A program made the position numbers and the translations under genes. A stretch of DNA of 64,000 nucleotides from Pristionchus mayeri (Eukaryota; Nematoda; Chromadorea; Rhabditida; Neodiplogasteridae), in assembly GCA_036245805.1 (NCBI GenBank), contig BTRK01000003.1:10912001-10976000 (forward strand), in the 5' to 3' direction. The notes under the pieces were generated by a model, which was given only the letters and a program-made list of their open reading frames with translations, did no database searches and was not told the DNA's origin. Shown piece by piece: positions 13,501-44,302 of the stretch (the stretch's first letter is position 1; each line of letters begins with the position of its first letter).

Positions 13501-15210
13501 GTAAGTGCGCCCTCTGATGAGAGAGTAGAAGAGGAGGACAGGTAGTCCCTATCCTCGTTAGGGGAAGTTGGTGATACACAAAAAGCAGCTGAAGTCAACT
13601 TCCTCCTTCCACTCCCAGATACTCGTTCAGATTGACCGCTCATCTCCGAGAGGTTCGGAAGTGATCTGTGTAAAAATAAATTTGTAAGGAAATAATGTAA
13701 CGTGTAATCAGTTGTCCTTTCATTAAAAAAACTTCTCCATTGTGCGCGCTCTCTCGCATGTTTACCGATGAGAAACGATAAAAGAAAGCATTTACTGCGT
13801 TGTCATCACTATTTATCTTATAATACATTAAACAATTAACTAACCTGTTTCTTCTCATCGAGAAGATGTAACCGAGCAGTGGCGCAGTCATTTTTCTCTG
13901 CCGGGCCGTCATTCTGCAAGCACACAAGGTATGGTCTCGTAGGAAATTGTGTCTTCATTAGAGTTATCTTATTAGAAAATGTTTAATCCATTTTCCGATA
14001 TGATTAATATGTAATGTCTAATTGATTGGATTTTGTTTATGTAGCGCACTTGAAAAATACCCGAACATACAGCAACATCCATTAAGAGATCCCTATTCTT
14101 CATCCAGACGCACAATCGCCTGTCAGATACGAAATGTCCATAATGAGGATGCTATAAAGTTCAGCCACATTAGGTTAATGGCTGACTTTTCATCGTTCTC
14201 GTTTCTTTGATAACTGGATTTCGTCTCGGCTTGTTGACTGGCGATTCCAGACGCGGTACTGATCACGAGGCACTCCGGCACGGTTTCCTGCATTCGACCA
14301 TCGAGCAATCGTCTGACTCTCTTCAGTTCCCATGCTCTCTCGTCCCTCTGGCAGGCGAGAGAGCATGTAAACTGAAGAGAGTCAGACGATTGTTCTCGAC
14401 CATCACGTTACGATGCAGCAATCGTTCTAACTGGTGGTACCAAAAATGCGCCAATTGTTCTGTTCGACTCTCCTCTCAAAAACCTTCTCATTTTCGTTGA
14501 AAATACCCAACAAAGGGTATGCCGTTGCCGCTACCTTTCACCGTATTTCAACACTCCATTCAATCGTAATAGCATTCGTCATTCACCATCTCTCGGGCCA
14601 CATATCGGTCAATCGGCGAGGCAGTGTGGGAAAGTTTGTCCCAATTGTACGCAAACAATTCATAAATTATCGGAATACCTCATCAAAGAAGGCGATCCCA
14701 TTCTCTCCCAATGTCATTCTAATATTTGCCACTGCTTGTCCATTGATGGAAATATCGACGTACTACAAGCAAATACGATTTAAAATAGTGCACCTTTTCC
14801 GGGTAGATTTCATGAGCTATATTTTTTGTGTTGTGAAATCATCACTACTACATAGAAGCACATACCTTCTCCGAGAAGTTGAATACTGCGTACTTGCCGA
14901 ATCGGACATGGAAGGGCGTCGAGTTGAAGTCGCCATTCGGCTGCTCCACTACGATTACGTCAATCGCGCCTGTATAGATTTTTGTAATGGAAACCGGATT
15001 AAATATTGTATATCAAGCATGTTAATGCTCATACCACCTCTCTTGCATTTCAATTCCCTTTCGTTTTGTAAATGAAGTTGCCCACATCATATCCAACAAT
15101 GACAGTAAAAAGACCTAATTATGCAGCCTTTGCTCACCAGACAGCGTTGCGGGATTTATCTGCTCGTAGTAAAACAGTGCATTCTTGTACATTCGATATA
15201 CGTAGTCCAT
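10591..15210 (-). CDS. lpin-1: lipin, phosphatidate phosphatase (PAP1)
   Basis: Read 5' to 3' on the minus strand: 15210-15138 (ATG), 14969-14866, 14762-14679, 14287-about 14215, 13913-13845, 13665-13458, 13165-13079, 12924-12748, 12697-12666, 12618-12519, 12079-12007, 11788-11683, 11515-11369, 11127-11016, 10695-10591 (TAG). The N-LIP domain opens with INPATLSG, then [11 protein letters not shown] and [12 protein letters not shown]. The middle has [16 protein letters not shown] and a run of five tryptophans. C-LIP has [20 protein letters not shown] joined across an intron to [11 protein letters not shown] (catalytic DxDGT), then [23 protein letters not shown] and [18 protein letters not shown]. 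Lipins make diacylglycerol from phosphatidate and also act in the nucleus. The junctions around 14215 and 12697 are uncertain; all other phases agree. The symbol is by homology to the single nematode lipin. Confidence 0.93.
12185..12350. repeat. GC-rich repeat end with GTCCGTCTGTCCG-type motif
   Basis: Lies in the lipin intron between exons 12519 and 12079. It holds a C-run/G-run hairpin (CCCCACCTTCGGCGGGG) and the inverted form of a motif found at 22682-22755 (AAAGCGCAGTGTCCGT plus repeated GAAATAGG). Probably the end of a dispersed element of unknown class. Confidence 0.5.
14303..14398. repeat. near-perfect 95-bp hairpin (GTCTGACTCTCT family)
   Basis: Left arm CAATCGTCTGACTCTCTTCA and a right arm that is its complement, with an inner stem CATGCTCTCTCG / CGAGAGAGCATG. 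It sits in a lipin intron. Related copies occur near 19030-19135, 60928-61023, 62325-62375 and 63279-63420. Confidence 0.8.
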
Positions 15211-38999: not shown

Positions 39000-39790
39000 G
39001 TATCATACAGTAGATCGAGCACAATCGGGGTGCTGGACAAGGGATGTATTTTAGGTTGATGGTCGATAATTGTGTCATAGTAGATCAAGACTAAGTACAG
39101 TACCCAATCGATCGTACAGTACCCAGGATACCGTATGACGCTACCGTAAACCAGATTATTGCGAACTAACTTTATTTTCAGAAAGTCAAGGTACCGTACC
39201 CAATCGATCCTACTGTCCCCATACCGTAACCCAGTGTACAGTACCCTTGCTACCGTAATCCACACCACTGCGGTCAATCGTAAACTGACTTTTTTTTCAA
39301 AACGTTTTCCATTGAGTTGATTCTTGCTCTATACCGTACACAATCGATCGTACAGTAACTCCAGATACCGTATACCGCTACCGTAACCTACCGTAATCCC
39401 GATAATCGATGATTAACTTTATTCACAGAAAGTCGAGATACCGTACCCAATCGATAGTACAGGACCACAGATAGCGTATATCGCTACCGTAACCTACCGT
39501 AGCTTACCGTAACCCCGATAATCGAGAATTAACTTTATTTTTAGAAAATCAAGATACAGTACCCAATCGATAGTACAGTACCCGCAGATACCGTATACCG
39601 CTACCGTAACCTACCGTAGTCTACCGTAACCCCGATAATCGACGATTAACTTTATTCACAGAAAGTCGAGATACTGTACGCAATCGATAGTACAGTACCC
39701 CCAGATACCATATACCGTTACCGTAACCTACCGTAACCTACCGTAACCTATCGTAACCCCGAATATAGCGAACTGGCTTTTGTCTCATTT
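39000..39790. repeat. ACGGTA/TACCGT satellite, left arm
   Basis: Units of about 120 bp containing CCAATCGATAGTACAGTACC, ATACCGTATACCGCTACCG and repeated TAACCTACCG. Inverted relative to 46200-46950. Confidence 0.85.
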
Positions 39791-40755
39791 TTTTACAAAT
39801 TTTTTTCTATTGAGTTGGCTGTTGGACTATAACATACTCTCTTGGTCAATGTCGTCTTTTTAAAGTGTCTCGAAATATGGTAATTATGTCACCGTATCCC
39901 GCGGTTATCATGCACCTTTTTCCAACTATATTCCTTTCTTTCTTTCTTTCGATTTTCGTAGAATCATACTTACGATATCGTTTAATTATACCGTACTCAA
40001 ATGCATTATACACGCTACTGTACAGTCCTGTTGGTTTCCCATGTGAACACGTTGCGCTCCGAGTAACCCCCAGTAACCCCCACTGACCCCACGGTTCTAG
40101 CACGTTCATTTTTGAGAGAATCGTTCTTAAATTGGTTTTGTTGTGTTCTGCATGCAATTCTGCATCGAATCATATTCAATTTGTACTATTAAAAGTTGAA
40201 ATATTTCGGGAAATTAATTTTGAAGTTGTCGAAAAGAAAAAAATCACTTCCCGGTTCACAATACGGTACTCAAGAAAAATCAGTTCGCGGTTCGCGTTTT
40301 GGCAACTTGCCAGCTGGCTACGTGGATTAACTTCGATTTTTGCTTTCAATGCGTATCTTCGCTGTTTTATTAATTATTGTCTACTTATTACCGTCTCAGA
40401 ACATTGGCGACTCGTACTGCAAGCTGATCCAAGGCGGACATCGACTGGAGTAATCTGTCAGATGAGTGATTTCCCCATATTTATATTTCCTTTGAACGGT
40501 TCAGTAAAGGCTTGTGCTGAAGGTTGTAGGTGACCGATGCCTTCTTTATCGGTCGAGGAACAATGGAACAGGAATACAACACGGTTCTTCTTCAACTGGA
40601 CAACAATGAGATGAGTAATTTTGTACAATTAATTTACACAATAAATTATTATAGTTAATTGTTATACTTCCATTTATCAATAATGGGGCCTCCTTTAACT
40701 TTATGAACTAATGTCATATTCTTTTTTTTGTACAATTAATTTACACAATGATTGC

Positions 40756-42182
40756 CTAGTTATCATCTGTCTCTTGAGAGTTTCTAGCTGCCATTCGATT
40801 ATCTCTTCTAGTCAGGTTGTAATTGTATCTGAATTATATACGGAGCTTGCTAAACCGTGGAAATACAAACCTACGAACACAATTCTTCCAAACACTAGGA
40901 GTCTTATTAGGATTGGGCTCCTTAAACTTTCTAACGGCCTGAAAAAAATATAGCTCACAGCAGAATGATATGTGCGTTGAAACCTCATAGACGAAGTCCA
41001 TTCTGGTTTGTTCTCTCTCCTCAATTTTCATTCCACTTTCATTGGGAAGTTGAACTTTGTCAAAAAGAATTCTCGAAAAATGAAGTTCACTCTTGTGTAA
41101 GCGTGAGAGACGTGAAAGCTCTTCGTCCGAAACAAATTTTGGTCCCGTATCTGAATATTGAAAACATAATGCAGCTTGTGAAGAATGTAATTTACATTCG
41201 TCCGTAGGCTTAGTCATCATTGTTTTAGCGATTTGTTCTAGCAGTGAGTCCTGCCTGTCCATTCTCTTCATCAGTTCAACGAACTAAATGAGTGTTGAAT
41301 GCACATTTCTTCTCAGATTCATACCGGAGATGATGAGAAGGGAAGGGACTGAGAAGAAGGAAGAGAAGGAGAAGAAGGAGGAGAAACCGACGGAGTATGG
41401 GGGGAATAGGACGGAGAGCCAAGGCTGCTCGAGTATCGGAGAGGAGAAGGAGGCGCACTTCTCTGGCCACTTCCCACTCTTGTGAGATTGGGAATGTGAC
41501 CACATCTGGTACGTAATAAAGATATCATTCAAACTGCTATTTGTTGTACGCATGCACACGTATATCACCTTGGATCTGTAGCCTTAGCTTTCTTAACGAC
41601 CTTCTTCTTCGATGGAGAAGGTGGTTCGACTGAAAGAATATGCCAATCTCCCACTTGTTTATTCACTGATTACCAGTATGATCTTTCACTATACCTTTTA
41701 CTCTTGCAGTTCTTTTATGTACAGGCAATTCGAATATATCCATCCCAACTGACATTGCTCTGTAGTCTCTATTGATGCCTGACATATTTTCCTAATATTT
41801 TTTCCAGATAGCGATTACTCACTACTAGCACGCTTCTCTCTCGCAGTATCATCCTTGAACTCGAGTTTTGACACTTCTGTAGATTATTCTCATTTATATA
41901 AAACCAGAAGAAGTAACAACCTTTTCCGAGAGATTTGAGGTGAAGGAGACAGGCCTTTTGCGTTCCCGAAGTAACAACCTTTCTACTGAACAGAGTTCCC
42001 AAATGATGTTCATATGTGATGTTTCCTCCTGGCGTCACACGTCCGTCTCTCAGTGTGTGCCCAGCGATTACTTCGTATTTCTCCTCATCGATATGTTTCA
42101 CGAGAATAAAATCTCTCATGACTGAAACGCGAATCTTAATTATTATAGAACACGAACCTTTCAGTGAGACAACATCATCCAT
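40756..42182 (-). CDS. passenger gene in the Tc1-like transposon; basic Ser/Pro-rich protein with a possible BEN-like C-terminus
   Basis: Eight exons, all phases agreeing: 42182-42158 (ATG), 42121-41921, 41876-41823, 41629-41569, 41505-41325, 41283-41056, 40938-40871, 40828-40756 (TAG); 296 residues. The N-terminus reads DFILVKHIDEEKYEVIAG, a small beta-rich module. A lysine-rich, nuclear-signal-like stretch SPSKKKVVKKAKA follows, then a long Ser/Pro-rich linker, a helix LMKRMDRQDSLLEQIAKTM, then KFVSDEELSRLSRLHKSELH and FSRILFDKAVRKF ending at WKNCVRR and an Arg/Asn-rich tail. The SDEEL...FSRILFDK...WKNCV pattern and the linker layout resemble BEN-domain DNA-binding proteins; this is tentative. 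It lies wholly inside the transposon, head-to-head with the transposase gene, and has no stop or broken splice site. Confidence 0.78.
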
Positions 42183-42189
42183 TCGAATA

Positions 42190-42600
42190 AGAACAAAGAA
42201 ACATTGTGAGCGTTCGCTGCTTACTTGCTTGATTTTTACGACCTATTTACTTGTTTTCTTAGCCGAGCTTCTTTTCCGCCACTCGTTTCCCACTCTCAAG
42301 ATAAATGTATGAAGAGCATTTATCCCTTTGTGATCACAATGTTCGTCTGTATGTATCGTGTTGTTTGAATGGGCGTAATACTCGAATGCATAGTAATATT
42401 TATTATCAGAGGCTATGGATGTTCCCTCATGCCGGGACTGCGTGACGAATGCAGTCCGATCGCAGCGCGCGATCTCCCTCAGTGCGAGACGCGCACACTC
42501 GAATCTGAATAAGGAGGGCATTAACATCTCTTACGGATCAGTATTGACACATTACAAACGAGAGGAGAGGGAGGAAACAGGAGAGGGGAAGGAATATTGG
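42190..42600. promoter_or_regulatory. divergent control region between passenger gene and transposase
   Basis: The two genes point away from this stretch, so both promoters should be here. It includes CGATCGCAGCGCGCGATC-like GC-rich palindromic sequence near 42459-42476. No TATA box could be assigned. Confidence 0.4.
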
Positions 42601-42804
42601 TTAGCATTTTCTACTCAGGAATTTTCTATCGATTGAAATTGAACTGCCTTTTGCTCAGTTCCTATATTCTTGGAAATCGCACTGAGGAGGTTGCGGAGTT
42701 AGTGAAGCAGTTATGTGAAGAAGAGAGGGATTCAGATGAAGAGCTCGAGACAGAGCAGGATGAAAGTTGGAACTTGGTTTCAAGAATGAAAACACTCACT
42801 TTAG

Positions 42805-43657
42805 ATTATTGACGAGTTGAAGGAGGAGTACGGAATCCCCATCACCCGATATGTCCTAAGGAGGTTGATGGAGATGAAGGGAGTGAAAACATACTCTGAA
42901 AAGTGAACATTTCGATATGATTATATTCTGCACCAAGATATTAATGATCAATAGAATATTCGTAGAAAAGTCCCGACCATCAATCCAACCCAAATGCAAA
43001 AGCGATACAAATATGTCGATGATCTCATGGCCTCTAATGAAACTTTCGCCAATTGGGTAATAGTTAGGTCTTCTATATACTTTATTAGTAAAAATACTTT
43101 TAGATTTGGAGTGACGAATGTACTGTACAGTTGGGCGGAAATCGTCGATTCATTCGTTCATCAAATCAGTATGATAAAAGAAGATTTACTAGCATTCATA
43201 AGTTCCCTAAAAAGGTACGCTACAAAATTATTAGAAATAGTAAAGTAAATCTATTTTGCAGTATATGATTTGGGGAGCCATCACTTGGGATGGAGCAGGC
43301 CCTCTTGCATTCATTGAGCCGGGAGAGACTCTAAACGGACCGGCATATATGGGAATAATGAAGGATTTCTTGCTCCCATTCATTGACAACTGGAGAGGAA
43401 GGAGCGAGGCTGTCTATCAACAGGATAGAGCTCCATGTCACGTTGCGAAAACATCACAAGCTCAATTTGCCAATTGGGGGATCACGTTGGCTCCGTGGGC
43501 TCCGTCCTCTCCAGACATGAATCCCATCGAGTATATTTGGAGGGATTTGAAGATCTGGGTAAGGACGAATCGCAAGCCCAAGAGCCTATCTGATTTGAAG
43601 ACTTCTATCCTACACTACTGGACCCATATCCTTAGTAAAGACATTTGTAGGAAGTAA
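42805..43657 (+). CDS. Tc1-like DD34E transposase (N-terminal exon not resolved)
   Basis: Exons 42805-42882, 42955-43056, 43104-43214 and 43262-43657 (TAA) join in phase. The first gives IDELKEEYGIPITRYVLRRL, the second DNA-binding helix pair. Next are KVPTINPTQMQKRYKYVDD, IWSDECTV (first Asp), YMIWGAITWDG, YQQDRAPCHVAK (second Asp) and SPDMNPIEYIWRDLK (Glu, 34 residues after the second Asp). All three catalytic residues are present. The first DNA-binding helices should come from about 42600-42710 (RTEEVAELVKQLCEEE is open there), but the junction is unclear. The stop lies 17 bp before the right inverted repeat. It cuts and pastes the element at TA. Confidence 0.9.
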
Positions 43658-44302
43658 ATTAACCACGTTAAGAAGAATATGACATTAGTTCATAAAGTTA
43701 AAGGAGGCCCCATTATTGATAAATGGAAGTATAATAATTAACTATAATAATTTATTGTGTAAATTAATTGTACAAAATTACTCATCTCATTGTTGTCCAG
43801 TTGAAGAAGAACCGTGTTGTATTCCTGTTCCATTGTTCCTCGATCGATAAAGAAGGCATCGGTCACCTACAACCTTCAGCACAAGCCTTTACTGAACCGT
43901 TCAAAGGAAATATAAATATGGGAAAATCACTCATCTGACAGATTACTCCAGTCGATGTCCGCGAAGATACGCATTGAAAGCAAAAATCGAAGTTAATCCA
44001 CGTAGCCAGCTGGCAAGTTGCCAAAACGCGAACCGCGAACTGATTTTTCTTGAGTACCGTATTGTGAACCGGGAAGTGATTTTTTTCTTTTCGACAACTT
44101 CAAAATTAATTTCCCGAAATATTTCAACTTTTAATAGTACAAATTGTATATGATTCGATGCAGAATTGCATGCAGAACACAACAAAACCAATTTAAGCAC
44201 GATTCTCTCAAAAATGAACGTGCTAGACCCGTGGGGTCAGTGGGGGTTACTGGGGGTTACTCGGAGCGCAACGTGTTCACATGGGAAACCAACAGGACTG
44301 TA

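Follow-up and report, generated by a model that had tools for sequence, protein, structure and literature searches.

The stretch of DNA analysed here, called the window, covers 64,000 nucleotides (nt) of the nematode Pristionchus mayeri (contig BTRK01000003.1, designated C3; C3:10,912,001-10,976,000). It contains a Tc1-like DNA transposon with two genes in head-to-head orientation. One gene encodes a DD34E transposase, and the other is a spliced gene for a second protein. The features of the element are listed in Table 1.

Table 1 Features of the two-gene element, in window positions.
Feature	Position	Strand	Remarks
Entire element with the TA on either side	40021..44302		
Left terminal inverted repeat	40021..40726	+	107 nt absent from L010 and other copies
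Subterminal array, three 10-bp-phased repeats AGTAACCCCC, AGTAACCCCC, ACTGACCCCA	40061..40092	+	0/400 shuffles as periodic
Second (putative accessory) gene, 324 aa	40756..42119	-	Coding exons 42119-41921, 41876-41823, 41778-41695, 41629-41569, 41505-41325, 41283-41196, 41150-40984, 40938-40871, 40828-40756
C-terminal basic domain of second protein	40756..41150	-	Three exons, 40756-40828, 40871-40938, 40984-41150; 8-sequence alignment
Helix-like segment ahead of C-terminal domain, candidate dimerisation segment	41196..41283	-	Counterparts at the same place in other lineages, judged by eye
Ser/Pro-rich linker exon	41325..41505	-	
Lys-rich, nuclear-signal-like segment EPPSPSKKKVVKKAKATDPR	41569..41629	-	Seen in sequence; putative function
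N-terminal domain (first exon)	41921..42119	-	Weak all-beta prediction from 8 sequences; mean pLDDT 53.7
Region between the divergent start codons, 295 nt	42120..42414		Candidate shared promoter
Tc1-like DD34E transposase gene	42415..43657	+	Exons 42415-42599, 42659-42758, 42805-42902, 42966-43056, 43104-43214, 43262-43657; predicted start ATG
First catalytic Asp codon	43113..43115	+	
Second catalytic Asp codon	43424..43426	+	
Catalytic Glu codon	43529..43531	+	34 residues past second Asp
Right terminal inverted repeat	43670..44302	-	Without a 71-nt stretch present in the left arm and in both L010 arms
Same subterminal array in right arm	44231..44262	-	

The element and its two genes

The termini of the element read TA-CAGTCCTGTTGG...CCAACAGGACTG-TA, at 40021 and 44302. 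The start TACAG and the finish CTGTA are found in the window copy and at 15 other loci (L010-L021 and L023-L025), so that TA stands at both ends of each. The inverted arms of the window copy pair over two blocks, one of 342 nt and one of 293 nt, both at 99% identity. The left arm exceeds that of L010 by 107 nt, with a direct repeat of 24 nt at a spacing of 107. The ends, arms, and TA flanks all match an earlier note on this DNA, which had described a TA-flanked Tc1-like element with near-identical inverted repeats. Tandem 117-nt repeats with CTACCGTAACC units occupy 39500-39787, immediately outside the element.

The P. mayeri genome (290.8 Mb in 73 contigs, six of them large) was searched for further copies. 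At least 57 DNA matches to the left arm were found, with 40 of 110 candidates scored. They comprise full copies, copies with deletions, and short derivatives. The window copy, L010, L011, and L012 have both genes in full and lie on C1, C2, and C3; L010, L011, and L012 are 98.6-99.6% identical to the window element. L014, L015, L016, L017, and L019 have one common internal deletion, which takes out the second gene together with the beginning of the transposase gene. One flank is common to L016 and L017, which may represent a single, duplicated insertion. L021 is rearranged about the same junction. L018, a single copy, keeps the transposase region and has lost the second gene, and L020 keeps the second gene and has lost the transposase. 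L022 is a single end. The family of the window copy is called lineage A, or family A. L023, L024, and L025 are short derivatives retaining about 235 nt of each end. Their two termini are unlike, one being of the window type (CCTG) and one of the L013 type (CCAG), which suggests an exchange of ends between lineages.

The second gene has nine coding exons and 324 codons, with GT-AG at every intron. Spliced alignment with the window protein as seed recovered these exons in the window and identified a comparable gene on L013 and L046. The gene is open in the window, L010, L011, and L020 (where one splice donor is altered), and in L012 the last exon differs. The L013 counterpart is open over 335 codons. 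The L046 gene is also open by spliced alignment; one of its introns (L046 3884-5025) measures 1.1 kb, carries a 31-nt inverted repeat, and resembles a later insertion. Between the window and L013, differences at codon positions 1, 2, and 3 number 93, 62, and 173 over 320 codons (p=9e-14), and the splice sites are conserved. Identity is 51-74% in exons and 42-66% in introns; as these ranges overlap, the bias across codon positions carries more weight. Chance is ruled out because approximately 99% identical copies exist elsewhere and because of the third-position bias against L013. These sequence data establish the second gene and its exons. The head-to-head spliced gene proposed earlier thus exists, and its former model of eight exons and 296 codons has been replaced by the present one. 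An additional 5' exon with an ATG at 42182 was rejected, as L010, L011, L012, and L020 are one base short there. The L013 gene starts at the ATG of the nine-exon model, not at 42182. A bacterial sigma-70 scan of the central region is not informative for a nematode.

The transposase matches Pfam DDE_3 with E=4.3e-10 and 40.1 bits (cut-off 28.6). HTH_Tnp_Tc3_2 scores 23.9 bits, under its cut-off of 31.5. The catalytic triad reported in the earlier note is present, but the gene of the window copy is not intact: a premature stop at 43655-43657 removes 28 C-terminal residues. Other copies are open past this point, and the frame extends to the position of 43741. In lineage B (L052-L054), the exons can be joined by means of a GT donor at the place equivalent to 42758/42805. 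At E<=0.001 the transposase has only two protein relatives, in Pristionchus fissidentatus (56%) and P. entomophagus (49%).

Linkage and co-divergence of the two genes

Relatives of the second gene were sought in the same genome with the protein as query. This gave 82 loci, each counted as one place. Nine lineages were distinguished: A, L013, L046, B, L047, L056, C (L057), L058, and L059. A divergent transposase match lies within 9 kb at 68 of the 82 loci, at a median distance of 2.3 kb, while 0.32 would be expected by random placement. The 68 is to be read as at least 68, because the transposase search scored the best 150 of 3,075 candidates and its counts are lower bounds; 148 places from these 150 matches entered the linkage count. 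Transposase sequence is also contained in 14 of the 16 loci fetched for distant second-gene matches (L046-L061). Both genes were modelled in A, L013, B, L047, L056, C, L058, and L059. In L046, an 82% transposase fragment lies 5.7 kb off on the opposite strand. Several models show damage or weak alignment: 5 nt are deleted at the first Asp of the L013 transposase, the L056 second gene carries a stop, and L058 is weakly aligned. On the sequence evidence, the head-to-head linkage holds across the nine lineages.

Lineage B, the largest, runs to dozens of copies. The ones that were compared are about 97% identical to one another, with a length of 4.7 kb and arms of 800 nt. At C2:34404052-34407961 and C5:21590881-21594714, lineage-B transposase matches form close inverted pairs around one second-gene match, like nested or palindromic double elements.

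No divergent transposase match among the 150 scored was found at 14 of the 82 second-gene loci. These include L020, which lost its transposase, L048, which has the N-terminal transposase part only, L060, which is a truncated lineage-B copy, and three more with same-strand transposase matches only. At C6:22176575, C6:27886977, and C5:38262353, second-gene-like sequence stands without a scored transposase match within 9 kb; these places could be lineages, remnants, or host genes. The earlier note had reasoned that copies lacking the gene, together with an orthologue at a fixed host locus, would point to a one-off capture by this copy. Copies lacking the gene do exist. No stand-alone host orthologue was found among the loci read, and several of the 14 loci without a divergent transposase match lie outside that set. 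A one-off capture is contradicted by the three further full two-gene copies and by the eight further lineages with relatives of the second gene.

The two genes have diverged together. Across eight lineages, the pairwise identities of the second gene and of the transposase correlate with r=0.91, and 12 of 40,320 label permutations were as good. The trees of the two genes agree, except for the long branch of L058. Rates of nonsynonymous (dN) and synonymous (dS) substitution were calculated from codons in well-aligned stretches only. For the second gene of L013 and L046, dS is 0.72 and dN is 0.124 over 324 codons (dN/dS about 0.17), and this pair is unsaturated. For L047 and L056, dS is 1.47 and dN is 0.173 over 195 well-aligned codons (dN/dS about 0.12). 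Where the window gene is one of the pair, synonymous sites have reached saturation. The low ratios demonstrate purifying selection on the second gene. Co-divergence and low dN/dS together indicate that it has been retained as a protein gene through the history of the clade recorded in this genome. The architecture, the age within this genome, the co-inheritance, and the selection are thus established at the level of sequence.

Phased arrays and the second protein

The end TACAGTCC is common to seven of the nine lineages (A, L013, L046, B, C, L047, and L056). The terminal inverted repeats (TIRs) measure about 400-1,400 nt where both arms are whole, and about 1,000 nt in L058. In A, L013, L046, B, and C, repeats phased at 10 bp lie about 40-75 nt from the end. 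They comprise three to six units, counted by eye, with a lineage-specific wording and a G(T/A)..CCC core. The 10-bp periodicity was equalled in 0/400 shuffles each in A, L013, L046, B, C, and L059, and in 1/400 in L058. When any period of 6-14 was allowed, the same six lineages still gave 0/400. Because the arrays of A, L013, and L046 share their origin, they amount to a single case. The distance of about 40-75 nt applies to A, L013, L046, B, and C, not to L058 or L059. The presence of the arrays is thus demonstrated. An array similar to that of the window copy occurs in L013 and L046 and at the ends of L022, L023, and L025, the last two being short derivatives that retain it. A and L013 are 83-86% alike over their terminal 340-380 nt and about 66-68% alike in their internal DNA; the arms have therefore been constrained or exchanged between lineages. 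With a phasing of 10 bp, all repeats would face the same side of the DNA helix, an arrangement that would suit a bound oligomer.

A common layout of the second protein is found in B, L047, L056, L057, L058, and L059: an N-terminal domain, a basic segment, a Ser/Pro-rich linker, a helix-like stretch, and a C-terminal domain. The C-terminal domain is basic, with an invariant Trp and an invariant Arg, and several other lineages also have exons of 167 nt and 68-71 nt in it. Neither the protein nor its separate domains match Pfam Myb/SANT.

The earlier note had likened the C-terminus to BEN DNA-binding domains, and sequence tests did not support this likeness. Pfam BEN (PF10523) was unmatched at E up to 10 by the window protein, the L013 protein, and 8 divergent C-terminal sequences; the controls Insv (2.5e-20), Bsg25A (7.4e-19), and BEND6 (1.9e-14) matched. 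In a profile-profile comparison with known BEN sequences, 135 of 200 shuffles were as good as the second protein, and a BEN positive control gave E=6e-5. At least 10 of 100 shuffles scored higher in a separate BEN comparison, and a sequence search of the PDB gave BEN no support either. A genome search with PF10523 gave 0 matches here and also 0 in 14 control genomes, and is therefore uninformative. It is doubtful that the domain is a sequence-divergent BEN domain and the protein a nematode BEN factor of the LIN-14/SEL-7 kind. What speaks for this idea is the helical prediction for the C-terminal stretch, together with the precedent of the nematode protein LIN-14, whose BEN domain was recognised only by structure (PMC10080584). 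The second protein also has a rough layout in common with BEN proteins including LIN-14, namely a helical, basic C-terminal domain behind a disordered part, but the sequence tests that detect known BEN proteins gave it no support.

AlphaFold models were made of the first exon alone and of a C-terminal piece with an intron read through. Their mean predicted local distance difference test (pLDDT) values are 53.7 and 62.7, respectively, and the C-terminal stretch is predicted to be helical. Foldseek found nothing at E<=0.001 for either model, and BEN chains were absent from the VIA-align listing, which means little for models of this kind.

A proposed two-component transposon and its alternatives

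We favour, with somewhat better than even confidence, a clade of two-component Tc1-like transposons in which the second protein is a putative nuclear DNA-binding accessory acting on the subterminal arrays. A DD34E transposase would cut and join at TA; that of the window copy is shortened by its stop. The accessory protein would be nuclear and consist of the N-terminal domain, the Lys-rich signal, a flexible Ser/Pro linker, a helix, and the basic C-terminal domain. It would most likely bind, as a dimer, the 10-bp-phased arrays within the long TIRs, and from there assist the assembly or the regulation of the transpososome. A nuclear DNA-binding helper is the best guess because of the basic C-terminus with its invariant Trp and Arg, the Lys-rich segment, and the phased arrays. 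We infer that the second gene is expressed, and that its product binds DNA, dimerises, has the array as its target, and helps rather than represses. The suggestion of the earlier note that a spliced second gene could regulate or assist transposition is supported in this conditional sense. A wider proposal, put forward more tentatively and at slightly less than even confidence, is that an animal Tc1/mariner clade became two-component, with a new family of DNA-binding accessory proteins that co-evolved with the transposase and with lineage-specific arrays in giant TIRs, as a matched set in each lineage.

Several observations weigh against the accessory role. The five family-A deletion copies multiplied despite the loss of the second gene, and L018 keeps the transposase region without it; the second gene is therefore not needed in cis. 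No second-gene match accompanies 76 of the 148 transposase matches. These 76 include family-A deletion copies, some copies of lineages B and C, and every match below 40% identity. The distant transposases (about 16 at 36-38% identity, the rest below 40%) have no second-gene match nearby, and a second gene of theirs may have diverged too far to be matched. At the transposase junction 42758/42805, family A and L013 lack an in-frame GT donor; the intron is either unusual or reflects a defect common to both. L058 and the fetched part of L059 yielded no TACAGTCC end. The array is weak in L047 (12/400) and not significant in L056 (59/400); with any period of 6-14 allowed, L058 gave 6/400, L047 50/400, and L056 298/400. 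Neither domain of the second protein has a convincing match in Pfam or among PDB sequences. A shared-word search of limited reach among 5.8 billion proteins gave no relative at E up to 10, so the second gene is known here from one genome. The link between protein and array is circumstantial.

The same anatomy would fit a self-regulator, in which the second protein binds the TIR arrays or the central promoter, represses the transposase, and limits copy number. The divergent genes share a 295-nt intergenic region, and copies without the second gene have amplified, as expected if its loss frees mobility. However, the amplified copies have also lost the start of the transposase gene and so are probably mobilised in trans, a situation in which a repressor would remain effective; L018, the sole copy with the transposase region alone, is single. 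We consider repression unlikely. A little less likely still is an anti-silencing role, in which the protein counters host silencing through the arrays rather than taking part in transposition itself. VANC proteins of plant VANDAL elements bind motif arrays, and the present arrays resemble theirs in that the sequence varies by lineage and the layout stays constant, but nothing in the sequence specifically indicates such a role. That the second gene was captured from the host and travels as mere cargo, without serving the element, is very improbable. Host gene captures occur in DNA transposons generally, the exon-rich structure is host-like, and some second-gene loci without a scored transposase match lie outside the set read. 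Against this stand the nine lineages, the co-divergence with the transposase, and the purifying selection.

Tc1/mariner elements are textbook one-gene transposons, and they serve as self-sufficient gene-delivery tools. Tc1 elements are described as having TIRs of about 30 bp, a single open reading frame (ORF), and a length of about 1.3 kb, with TIRs of several hundred bp in some, such as Minos (PMC7325037). The present element belongs with them by its TA target, DD34E triad, DDE_3 match, and inverted ends. It differs in having two genes, a length of 4.2-4.7 kb (families A and B), and TIRs of about 400-1,400 nt. A single ORF in a short element is typical of Tc1, though not strictly defining; here two genes occur in nine lineages. 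The TBE and Tec elements of ciliates have a DD34E transposase and further ORFs (PMC7325037). They share with the present elements a DD34E transposase accompanied by additional coding sequence, and differ in having three ORFs rather than two genes, ciliate hosts, and, in Tec, a site-specific recombinase. The two-protein plan also resembles that of PIF/Harbinger, CACTA En/Spm, and MuDR, in which a transposase is paired with a second protein of DNA-binding type. In Harbinger this protein is Myb-like, and En/Spm, like the present elements, has subterminal motif arrays, which are bound by TnpA. Those transposases belong to other superfamilies, and their second proteins have other domains; no Pfam family was matched by the second protein here.

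No description of a two-gene Tc1-like clade was found in the open-licence literature. An old animal clade that keeps a selected second gene would show that Tc1/mariner transposons can evolve a partner protein, as other superfamilies have. The clade would supply natural pairs of protein and DNA array for testing accessory effects on targeting, assembly, and silencing, and would add a candidate for a new family of DNA-binding proteins.

Elsewhere in the window, at 14318-14380, both strands exceed the cut-off for Rfam mir-8364, a microRNA linked to Pristionchus; the sequence there forms a near-palindromic hairpin that is possibly part of a repeat.

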